Shown: piece after piece, positions 38,018 to 44,085 of the stretch | Layout of the letters: each line of letters starts with the position of its first letter | Numbering within the stretch: the first letter of the stretch is position 1 | Assembly (NCBI RefSeq): GCF_007752535.1 | Contig: NZ_CP036426.1 | Coordinates: 5,456,001-5,520,000, forward strand | Source of the DNA: Tautonia plasticadhaerens | GTDB lineage: Bacteria > Planctomycetota > Planctomycetia > Isosphaerales > Isosphaeraceae | Length of the DNA stretch: 64,000 bases | Direction of reading: 5' to 3' | Notes under the pieces: generated by a model | Told to the model about the DNA's origin: nothing | Seen by the model: only the letters and a program-made list of their open reading frames with translations | The model's database searches: none | Made by a program: the position numbers and the translations under genes

Positions 38018-38425
38018 ATGGACCCGATCCCGGCTACCTTCCGCCCCTTCGAACGCATCTCCCGCCCCGAGGACTTCCGCCGGGCCTTCGACCGCCGTCG
38101 GTCGGCCTCGGACGAGGTGATGATCGTCTACGGCGCCGAGAACGGCCTGGAACACCCGAGGCTCGGCATCTCCGTCGGCCGCAAGAAGGTCCGCAAGGCC
38201 ACCGCCCGCAACCGGGTCAAGCGGCTGATCCGCGAGGCCTTCCGCCGGAACAAGGCCGGGCTGCCCCCCGGCGTCGACCTCGTCGTGGTCCCCCGGGGGG
38301 CCGGGCTGACCTTCGCCCAAGCCGACCGTTCCCTGCCCCACCTGGCCCGGGCCGTCGCCGGTCGGCTGGCCCGAGACCGCTCGCGGCCCCGAGATCGCGA
38401 CCGATCGGCCGAGGCCGCGCCATGA
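38018..38425 (+). CDS. rnpA: Ribonuclease P protein component
   Basis: A 135-residue RnpA. The RNR motif region [17 protein letters not shown] binds the 5' leader and [14 protein letters not shown] precedes it. With the catalytic RNA (rnpB, not seen here) it matures tRNA 5' ends. The C-terminal Arg-rich tail is an extension. The ATG directly follows the upstream stop, and its own stop overlaps the yidD start as ATGA. Confidence 0.93.
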
Positions 38426-38664
38426 CCGTCCGCCCCTGGCGATGGCCCGGCCTGGTCGCGGTCGAGGGGCTCTGCCTGCTCATCCGGGGCTACCAGATCC
38501 TGATCGCCCCGCTGATCGGCGACGTCTGCCGGTTCGAGCCCAGTTGCAGCCGGTACATGGTCGGCGCCTTGCGCAAGTACGGGTTCTTCCGGGGATTCTG
38601 GAAGGGGACCGGCCGGCTGCTCCGCTGCCACCCCTGGCATCTCGGCGGCTACGACCCGCCCTGA
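38422..38664 (+). CDS. yidD: Membrane protein insertion efficiency factor YidD
   Basis: An 80-residue Yid[14 protein letters not shown] is followed by [11 protein letters not shown], the conserved cysteine motif, and [12 protein letters not shown] at the end. It assists YidC-dependent membrane insertion. In most genomes yidC follows; here the next gene is convergent and overlaps the yidD 3' end by 16 bases, so yidC lies elsewhere. Confidence 0.95.
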
Positions 38665-40931: not shown

Positions 40932-41294
40932 ATGCCGATCGACTACCGGAGGGACGGCGACGTGGTGATCATCGGCAACGTGGCCGGGGTCATCAGCGAC
41001 GCGAGCACCTTCGACGCCGCCCGGGACCTCGACGCCCTGCTCGACCTGGGCCATCGCCGGTTCGTCCTGGAGCTCTCCGGCGTCGGCACCCCGGGGCCGA
41101 CCGCCCTGGGTGCGCTGATGACCCTCGCCCGGCAGGTCCGCCGGAGGGAGGGGGAGGTCGTCTTCTCCCGGGTCGGCCGGTCGACGTTGCGACTCTTCGA
41201 GGAGATGCAGCTCGACGCCCACGTCGACCTGTTCCGCTCCACCCCCGAGGCGCTGGCCTTCCTCCGGAGGTCCGACCCGGGCCTCGACGACTGA
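40932..41294 (+). CDS. STAS-domain (anti-sigma antagonist-like) protein
   Basis: A 120-residue stand-alone STAS domain (DGDVVIIGNVAGVISDAS, then FVLELSGVGTPGPTALG). In SpoIIAA-type anti-sigma antagonists a DSSG motif carries the phosphorylated serine; here that position reads GPTA (55-58), with proline at the phospho-serine site and Thr57 next to it. GGAGGAGG gives a strong ribosome binding site. No anti-sigma kinase is adjacent. Confidence 0.82.
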   Translation: MPIDYRRDGDVVIIGNVAGVISDASTFDAARDLDALLDLGHRRFVLELSGVGTPGPTALGALMTLARQVRRREGEVVFSRVGRSTLRLFEEMQLDAHVDLFRSTPEALAFLRRSDPGLDD

Positions 41295-41347: not shown

Positions 41348-41671
41348 ATGGCCTTCGAGTATTCCTCGGCCGAGCCGACCCGAGCCGAGGTGGACCGGAT
41401 GCCCGGCCCCGTCCTCCTCGAGTTCGGGGCCGGCTGGTGTGGCCACTGCCAGGCCCTGGCCCCGGCGCTCGACGCCCTGCTGGAGCACCGCCCTGAAATC
41501 CGGCACCTCGCCGTCGCCGACGGCCCCGGCCGCCCCCTCGGCCGTTCCTTCCGCGTCAAGCTCTGGCCGACGCTCGTCCTGCTCCGGGACGGCGAAGTCC
41601 TCCGCACCCTCGTCCGGCCCCGGCCCGACGAGGTCCGCGAGGCCCTCGACGCCTTTTCGCAATCCGGGTGA
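41348..41671 (+). CDS. Thioredoxin-fold protein
   Basis: A 107-residue cytoplasmic thioredoxin-like protein. The redox motif is WCGHC and the cis-proline loop is KLWPTLVLLRDGE. WCGHC, rather than WCGPC, suggests a higher redox potential than classical thioredoxin. No signal peptide is seen. It lies 53 bases after the STAS gene. Confidence 0.88.
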   Translation: MAFEYSSAEPTRAEVDRMPGPVLLEFGAGWCGHCQALAPALDALLEHRPEIRHLAVADGPGRPLGRSFRVKLWPTLVLLRDGEVLRTLVRPRPDEVREALDAFSQSG

Positions 41672-43048: not shown

Positions 43049-43447
43049 TCAGCCCCGGATCTCGGCGATCACCGCCTTCACGTCCTCGGCCTCGACGGGC
43101 TTGCCGGCCAGTTGTTTCATGGCGACCCCCATCGCCTGGCCCTCCTTGGGGGCGGCCTTGATCGGTTCGGCGGCGGGGGCAAGCTCCCGGGCGATCTGCT
43201 CCCGGGAGAGGGTGGCCGGCACCCATTCCTCGATCAGGGCCACCTCCTCGGGGCTGAAGGAGGTCTGGCCCCCCCTGGCCTCCTTGAGGATGCCCCGCAT
43301 CTTCTTGATCGCCTGGTCGTCGGGCACCTCCTCGCCGGAGCCGGTAGTGAGCTGGGCGATCCAGTAGCGGAGGAAATTCGTGCGGACGGCGTCCCGGGCC
43401 TTCATCGAGTCCTTCAGCTGGGCTCTCATGCGTTGGACGATGGCCAT
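43049..43447 (-). CDS. GatB/YqeY-domain protein
   Basis: A 132-residue stand-alone YqeY protein. It begins MRAQLKDSMKARDAVRTNFLR after a short leader, and its C-terminal half contains GQAMGVAMKQLAG, as in the tail domain of amidotransferase GatB. These proteins are thought to interact with tRNA; their activity is not established. It is divergent from an RRF-like gene. Confidence 0.9.
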   Translation of the reverse strand: MAIVQRMRAQLKDSMKARDAVRTNFLRYWIAQLTTGSGEEVPDDQAIKKMRGILKEARGGQTSFSPEEVALIEEWVPATLSREQIARELAPAAEPIKAAPKEGQAMGVAMKQLAGKPVEAEDVKAVIAEIRG

Positions 43448-43581
43448 TGCAATTCGCTCCTCGATCGGTTCCGATCACCCCACCGGACACCGACCCGACC
43501 CCGATGGGTTCGCCGGGGACCCGGACCCGACCCTGATTCGATCCCCCAGTGTACCGCCCTCCCTTGGCCCCCTCGACGCCG

Positions 43582-44085
43582 ATGAACGACTGGAAGCCCC
43601 GGATGACCCGGACGGTGCGGCTCCTCGCCGAGCAGCTGGCGACGATCCGGTCCGGCACGGTCGACCCCGGGCTCGTCTCCAGCGTCAGGGCCCGGTCGGG
43701 GGGGAACGCGGTGCCGATCAGGCGCCTCGCCGCCGTGACCGCCCGGGGAGACCGCCTGGTCGTCCGGCCCTTCGACCCGGGCGACGTGCCCGCCGTCGTC
43801 CGGGCCCTGACCGACGCCAACCTCTCCGCGTACGCGATGGACCCGACCTCGATCGCCGTCTCCGTGCCGCCGATCAGCGGGGAGCAGCGGCAGGCGATGG
43901 CCAGACGGGTCAAGGCCCTCGGCGAGGAGGCCAGGGTCGCCGTCCGGATGATCCGCCAGGACGCCCGCAAGCAGATCGCCGCCCGCGGGAGGGGCTCCGA
44001 GCGGGCCGTCCAGGAAGCGACCGACCTCGCCGTCGCCGAGATCGACCGCCTCGTCGCCGCCAAGGTCGCCGAGATCGGCGGCTGA
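43582..44085 (+). CDS. Ribosome-recycling-factor-like protein, divergent
   Basis: A 167-residue protein (from ATG 43582; GTG 43549 would add 11) with the RRF layout: helix 1, a beta domain (VPIRRLAAVTARGDRLVVRPFDP), the ISGEQRQAMARRVKALGEEARVAVR segment of the long helix with its arginine, and a C-terminal helix. It is 15-20 residues shorter than typical RRF because the last helices carry a deletion, and the canonical R-T-G-R-A near residue 24 is R-S-G-T-V. It is probably a second, paralogous RRF; the usual frr neighbours (rpsB, tsf, pyrH) are missing. Confidence 0.78.
   Translation: MNDWKPRMTRTVRLLAEQLATIRSGTVDPGLVSSVRARSGGNAVPIRRLAAVTARGDRLVVRPFDPGDVPAVVRALTDANLSAYAMDPTSIAVSVPPISGEQRQAMARRVKALGEEARVAVRMIRQDARKQIAARGRGSERAVQEATDLAVAEIDRLVAAKVAEIGG

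Follow-up and report, generated by a model that had tools for sequence, protein, structure and literature searches.

RRF-B, a divergent ribosome recycling factor paralogue coexisting with canonical frr in the Isosphaeraceae

The genome of Tautonia plasticadhaerens encodes two ribosome recycling factors (RRFs), a protein that is normally single-copy and strongly constrained. The divergent paralogue, here termed RRF-B (167 aa), is encoded at positions 43582–44085 (+ strand, stop codon included) of the 64,000-nucleotide stretch of DNA analysed, hereafter the window, and was recovered as 19 copies in 18 genomes. Its status as a second copy is certain for practical purposes. We tentatively propose, giving the idea slightly less than even weight, that RRF-B is an RRF derivative that docks on the large subunit and is not an ordinary EF-G-coupled recycler, probably acting as a ribosome-occupying or ribosome-guarding factor or a stress factor beside the canonical RRF.

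Membership of RRF-B in the RRF family is firm. The protein matched the Pfam RRF profile (PF01765) with 102.4 bits (cut-off 29.7; E 3e-29) across profile positions 2–163 of 164, a score and span that rule out a chance match. The first-pass annotation had described a divergent RRF homologue, and both the homology and the divergence are real: against the NCBIfam frr equivalog TIGR00496, RRF-B scored 90.6 bits, under the curated cut-off of 149.1, and the best E value among the 19 copies was 1.1e-28, versus 187 bits and E 2.2e-55 for the canonical copy in the same genome. The AF2 model (pLDDT 86.3, pTM 0.58) has the two-domain fold of a three-helix bundle and an alpha/beta domain, with an interdomain angle that is unsure at this pTM. 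All 27 Foldseek matches of the model at E ≤ 0.001 were RRFs or RRF domains (TM 0.38–0.71 by query length), and comparison with 1ek8 gave a VIA Z of 16.8 over 166 residues (rmsd 6.8). The length of 167 aa assumes the ATG start, an in-frame GTG at 43549 giving 178 aa; the ATG position is common to all 19 aligned copies, whose start codons were chosen by script from alignment to P0001.

The Pfam RRF search of the 9.4 Mb genome (6 contigs) returned two genes, one of 197.7 bits at C1:5569737–5570225 and one of 101.7 bits at the window locus. The former is the canonical frr, which lies about 70 kb from RRF-B behind rpsB (ribosomal protein S2), tsf (EF-Ts) and an amino-acid-kinase (pyrH-type) gene; the rpsB-tsf-pyrH-frr slot is occupied by this copy and not by RRF-B, as expected from the earlier remark that RRF-B lies outside that setting. 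The genome search proposed in the first-pass annotation therefore found another frr, and a reading of RRF-B as the sole, divergent RRF is ruled out. Among 45 genomes of the family Isosphaeraceae, a full canonical copy was found in 40 and RRF-B in 18 (two copies in G027); 17 of the 18 RRF-B genomes hold both genes, which bears out the suggested second recycling factor, taken as a second paralogue of RRF. The five genomes with no full canonical match, all drafts assembled into hundreds of contigs, are G003, G016, G021, G025 and G022, the last with a fragment at the end of a contig. One of them, G016 (83% complete), carries RRF-B without a canonical frr, probably through an assembly gap given its roughly 1190 contigs.

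Conserved positions are given in E. coli numbering, the E. coli RRF sequence having been checked against 1ek8. Alpha1 of domain I and the first hinge (residues 1–27 of RRF-B; 43582–43662, + strand), delimited by alignments and DSSP, start six residues shorter than in the canonical protein and carry I-R-S-G-T-V in place of I-R-T-G-R-A; the deviation noted earlier at the R-x-G-R-A motif is correct, the window protein reading R-S-G-T-V. R28, G30, R31 and A32 are each present in 49/49 canonical and other RRFs. All 19 RRF-B copies retain R28 and G30, together with R129 and R132, and none has R31 or A32, the former being replaced by T, A, K, P or S. We take R28, R129 and R132 to be the rRNA-facing, rRNA-binding set of domain I. 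Two further positions changed in every RRF-B copy, R133 to Q and N136 to R, and R99 was lost in 17/19. Residues R31, R133, N136, Y45, T49, R99 and E150/D151 are invariant or nearly so in the 49 other RRFs.

The distal end of domain I has been rebuilt. A new short tip, A-R-G-R-G-S-E (residues 134–140; 43981–44001, + strand), replaces in the alignments the acidic turn carrying E150/D151, which is deleted in all 19 RRF-B copies and present in all 49 compared RRFs, and which is not universal, some RRFs of other phyla differing there. The new turn reads G-R-G-S in 17/19 copies and G-K-R-S in G001 and G002, and the helix end preceding it has a conservation of 0.73 in RRF-B versus 0.57 in canonical copies (8 columns). 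The first-pass annotation had reported part of the C-terminal helical region as missing. Helical sequence is indeed absent, as 10 residues of the alpha2–alpha3 turn and 6 N-terminal residues in 19/19 copies, that is, from the distal domain I tip; the C-terminal helix itself is present. Helices assigned by DSSP in the AlphaFold models span residues 4–21, 100–135 and 140–166 in RRF-B and 3–26, 108–145 and 151–184 in the canonical protein, ends which indicate a bundle shortened at its domain II-distal end. Judging from sequence, a tip some five residues shorter per helix and devoid of the acidic turn should change contact with the peptidyl transferase centre (PTC) and the P-site CCA end.

RRF-B is also strongly basic. 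Its pI ranges from 9.61 to 11.22 (19 copies) and does not overlap that of 39 canonical Isosphaeraceae copies (5.04–5.60) or of 10 others (4.92–7.87). The gain in mean net charge over canonical copies amounts to 5.3 for the N-terminal helix, 2.4 for domain II and 4.1 for the C-terminal part. At the tip (residues 137–160) it is +2.7 (2 to 3) in RRF-B versus −4.5 (−6 to −3) in canonical copies; with narrower borders (139–157) it is +0.8 (0 to 2) versus −3.4, and the turn proper is therefore better described as neutral to basic than as clearly basic. The retained arginines and basic surface make it likely that RRF-B still addresses the ribosome.

Domain II (residues 26–96, E. coli 31–103; 43657–43869, + strand) has lost Y44/Y45 and most of the T-P-L motif, and has gained an A-Y-A insert and a 4-residue loop deletion. 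Y45 is lost in all 19 RRF-B copies; within T-P-L, P is kept in 12/19 and T49 lost in 18/19. Conservation in RRF-B is 0.65 in domain I and 0.50 in domain II (p 0.0006), versus 0.79 and 0.85, respectively, for the canonical proteins encoded by the same 17 genomes (p 0.14, not significant). The interaction between domain and copy type was not equalled in any of 20,000 column permutations, with columns treated as independent; the paired domain and distance tests left out G027a (a second copy) and G016 (canonical copy absent). Much of the second hinge, P-P-x-S-x-E-Q, survives in RRF-B and argues for some residual EF-G contact. Domain II is predicted by AF2 as a complete fold, and with the kept hinge this means that EF-G coupling may persist.

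RRF-B is under purifying selection. The reading frame is open in all 19 copies, without internal stops, 26 alignment columns are invariant across them, and dN/dS in eight pairs is about 0.07–0.27 (dN 0.02–0.22, dS 0.24–1.42), versus about 0.01–0.12 for the canonical gene in six of the same eight pairs. Mean protein distance is 0.41 for RRF-B versus 0.19 for the canonical copy, and about three to six times the canonical value in the five closest pairs. For these comparisons, duplicates (L001, L002, L052) and a copy ending at a contig end (L011) were excluded from the canonical and RRF-B sets, leaving 39 of 40 canonical copies, and alignment A1 omits the C-terminal extensions of RRF-B copies L044, L047 and L049. 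In the tree, RRF-B forms a single clade (100/100) placed outside on a long branch; an AU test did not reject its union with the Isosphaeraceae canonical copies (p 0.16). Distances of RRF-B and the canonical protein correlate across 17 genomes (Mantel r 0.50, p 0.0002), which is better explained by ancient vertical inheritance plus losses than by recent spread, and leaves room for transfer within the family. The best reading is an old, family-restricted RRF paralogue, mostly inherited vertically. In G027 (77% complete), the two RRF-B copies L042 and L046 are sisters in the tree (dN 0.075, dS 0.32) and represent either a later, second duplication or a mixed assembly.

Among the sampled planctomycetes, a second RRF copy is found only in the Isosphaeraceae. 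The comparison across planctomycetes that had been suggested with the annotation gave RRF-B in 18 of the 45 family genomes and no second RRF elsewhere among some 390 sampled. Specifically, no second RRF outside the family was found in a phylum sample of 392 genomes searched with P0001, in which at most nine candidates were scored per genome and 25 genomes (about 24 outside the family) gave no match; G000 and G022 belong to the family itself. Two genomes outside the family with two matches each (G069 and G348) hold a single Pfam RRF apiece. An RRF-B profile searched at E ≤ 1e-30 against a class sample of 397 genomes gave 19 high matches (264–299 bits), all in the Isosphaeraceae, followed by 124 bits, a gap that arises partly by construction since the profile was built from Isosphaeraceae copies. 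A GTDB scan with two peptide patterns returned, among the best 80 of 178 matches, 12 RRF-B loci at 51–79% identity, named Tautonia, Singulisphaera, Aquisphaera, Isosphaeraceae or planctomycete MAGs, below which came canonical RRFs at ≤35%. No RRF-B was found in viral contigs, and L133, a suspected short RRF of a Clostridiales MAG, proved to be a normal RRF. Within the family, presence is patchy: RRF-B occurs in 4/4 genomes of the window's genus, 1/6 in g18 and 1/2 in g20, with 11 changes of presence on the canonical tree (39 genomes), a pattern indicating that a lineage can dispense with it. G006 additionally holds a third, partial RRF match (C498:477–653; 59 profile positions, 71 bits) besides its canonical copy and RRF-B.

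Turning to the genomic neighbourhood, genes were sought in a stretch around each RRF-B locus, seven of the stretches ending at contig ends and five being under 8.2 kb, with gene calls made by GC pattern, which missed RRF-B in L048. A YqeY-family protein (132 aa; 43049–43447, − strand) is encoded divergently from RRF-B with 134 bp between, and matches Pfam YqeY (PF09424) with 38.4 bits (cut-off 27). Its presence agrees with the first-pass annotation; the implied functional unit with RRF-B is not supported, as YqeY adjoins RRF-B in 5/19 loci (four of the window's genus and G005) and is found in 17 of the 27 genomes without RRF-B. The gene probably lies outside any conserved unit. Upstream in the window are genes for a SpoIIAA-like STAS-domain protein (40932–41294, + strand), the best homologue of which adjoins RRF-B in two other genera, and for a thioredoxin with C-G-H-C (41348–41671, + strand), the counterpart of which, in Singulisphaera acidiphila (G038), shares four overlapping bases (ATGA) with RRF-B. 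Farther away, consecutive ORFs at 38018–38664 resemble by eye an RNase P protein (rnpA) and then a YidD-type membrane insertion protein.

A STAS gene lies near RRF-B in 7/19 loci, upstream in the four Tautonia-group genomes and in G008, G001 and G002. In the last three it is directly upstream (46 nt in G008 and 6 nt in G001 and G002, the G008 and G002 gaps being taken from coordinates) and is the genome's only STAS homologue at E ≤ 1e-9, so abundance of STAS genes does not account for the adjacency. Seven other RRF-B genomes have a STAS homologue away from RRF-B, and four have none at E ≤ 1e-9. Six of the seven STAS proteins keep Ser/Thr at what is presumably the SpoIIAA phosphorylation site. 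In the window and two congeneric relatives, the STAS gene is followed by the thioredoxin gene, with a partial match in a third; the thioredoxin gene lies 2.7 kb upstream of RRF-B in G027, and in G020 the two genes are about 3.3 kb apart without RRF-B. Neighbours at the remaining RRF-B loci vary (sulfatase, glycosyl hydrolase, glycosyltransferase and others), and a STAS/thioredoxin/RRF-B unit is accordingly loose. The thioredoxin co-occurs with RRF-B in 12/18 genomes versus 4/27 without it. Fisher p values are 0.001 for thioredoxin, 0.065 for STAS and 0.19 for YqeY across 45 genomes, and 0.027, 0.028 and 0.12, respectively, in the 32 genomes of ≥90% completeness; once relatedness was taken into account, co-occurrence was not significant for any of the three among five pairs, too few for significance.

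The functional proposal draws on how RRF works elsewhere. Passages of PMC9067457 describe domain II as crucial for recycling, presumably through EF-G, which moves it against bridge B2a in normal recycling, and describe domain I as overlapping the acceptor end of P-site tRNA; on ribosomes with P-site peptidyl-tRNA, RRF binds weakly and no splitting follows with EF-G. The same text places the mitochondrial RRF tip near the PTC, and a section of PMC8203779 locates mitochondrial EF-G2 contacts on the hinges and domain II. We propose that domain I of RRF-B would dock in the A/P-site cleft of the large subunit through its retained R28/R129/R132 face and strongly basic surface, while the cut-back tip without the acidic turn would alter contacts near the PTC and the CCA end in the P site. 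Domain II, having lost most of the constraint seen in normal RRFs, would have left ordinary EF-G-coupled recycling; together, the domain II and tip changes suggest a departure from normal recycling. RRF-B could then be a regulated, tighter RNA-bound factor that occupies or guards idle, stalled or stressed ribosomes alongside the canonical RRF. A stress or hibernation role would agree with the charge reversal, the lost domain II conservation and the STAS and thioredoxin neighbours. A more elaborate version, in which an acidic, transient EF-G partner became in the Isosphaeraceae a basic, short-tipped occupant that guards ribosomes (or splits them while tolerating peptidyl-tRNA) under the control of a STAS/thioredoxin stress circuit, is speculative and on balance unlikely.

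The main rival is a specialised alternative recycling factor, with RRF-B working with one of several EF-G-type proteins on particular ribosome states; for example, P-site tRNA might be kept and tolerated by the shorter tip, in a division of labour like that of EF-G1 and EF-G2. We regard this as a doubtful but serious possibility. It would account for the retention of R28/R129/R132 and of much of the second hinge, has a parallel in Borrelia EF-G2, which according to passages of PMC9067457 acts only in recycling, and could draw on the EF-G-type proteins of the family, in which three strong EFG_III matches per genome are usual (≥90 bits, counted by eye; 30/45 overall). However, conservation within RRF-B is lowest in domain II, the part that faces EF-G, and EFG_III number is not raised with RRF-B: three matches occur in 13/18 genomes with it and 17/27 without, two in 4 versus 8, four in 1 versus 1 and one in 0 versus 1, many of these being drafts. 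This by-eye count across 45 genomes gave no sign of an extra EF-G gained with RRF-B.

The higher charge could alternatively reflect another nucleic-acid target. A neofunctionalised RRF fold of this kind, a basic RNA-binding descendant whose target lies outside the ribosome (mRNA, tRNA, the nucleoid or a partner protein), would fit a pI of ~10.4, a mean charge raised in every part of the protein and the loss of conserved domain II motifs, but R28, R129 and R132 are invariant in 19/19 copies, which would be unexpected had the rRNA site been abandoned, and we consider this reading improbable. Far less credible still is a decaying duplicate without function. The patchy presence of RRF-B and its evolution, faster than that of the canonical copy in both distance and dN/dS, would be in keeping with decay, yet the substitution pattern contradicts it, with an open frame in every copy, dN well below dS in all eight pairs and the 26 invariant columns. 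Equally remote is a two-protein translation module of YqeY and RRF-B, as the divergent neighbours in the window's genus (4/4 genomes) and in G005 might have suggested: 14/19 RRF-B loci have no YqeY nearby, and 3/18 RRF-B genomes have no YqeY match at all.

RRF-B resembles RRF (frr; PF01765, TIGR00496) in full-length homology, predicted two-domain fold and retention of R28/G30/R129/R132, and differs in falling under the equivalog cut-off, in its short tip without the acidic turn, in the loss of R31 and most domain II motifs, in a pI of ~10 versus ~5, and in lying outside the frr operon and coexisting with canonical frr. Mitochondrial and chloroplast RRFs are likewise divergent with the same fold, and their structures 6nu2, 7nsh and 6eri are among the PDB matches of RRF-B; by the accounts in sections of PMC9067457 and PMC8203779, however, mitochondrial RRF has a tip lengthened by an N-terminal extension, opposite to the shortening in RRF-B, and is that ribosome's own recycler. 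EF-G1 and EF-G2 offer another bacterial case of a duplicated recycling component (passages of PMC9067457), and the Isosphaeraceae also have several EF-G-type genes, but there it is the GTPase that is duplicated, whereas the duplication described here affects the RRF side and, among the samples searched, was confined to the Isosphaeraceae. If the ribosome-guarding reading were true, RRF-B would act similarly to HflX and hibernation factors. To our knowledge, these have folds unrelated to RRF, and Pfam, NCBIfam and further database searches of RRF-B gave no sequence link to them. HflX is described in part of PMC9067457 as an alternative factor under stress.

Searches of the open-access literature (titles and abstract starts, with subscription journals mostly outside) returned no report of a second RRF in a bacterium, and a literature search for RRF residue mutants found nothing. 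RRF-B is a natural variant in which the arginines presumed to face rRNA are kept and the tip, charge and domain II rebuilt, and as such is a ready-made experiment. It could separate the parts of RRF required for large-subunit docking from those required for EF-G coupling and those required for the rejection of ribosomes with P-site peptidyl-tRNA. Should the guarding reading be true, RRF-B would represent a new type of accessory factor for the ribosome.
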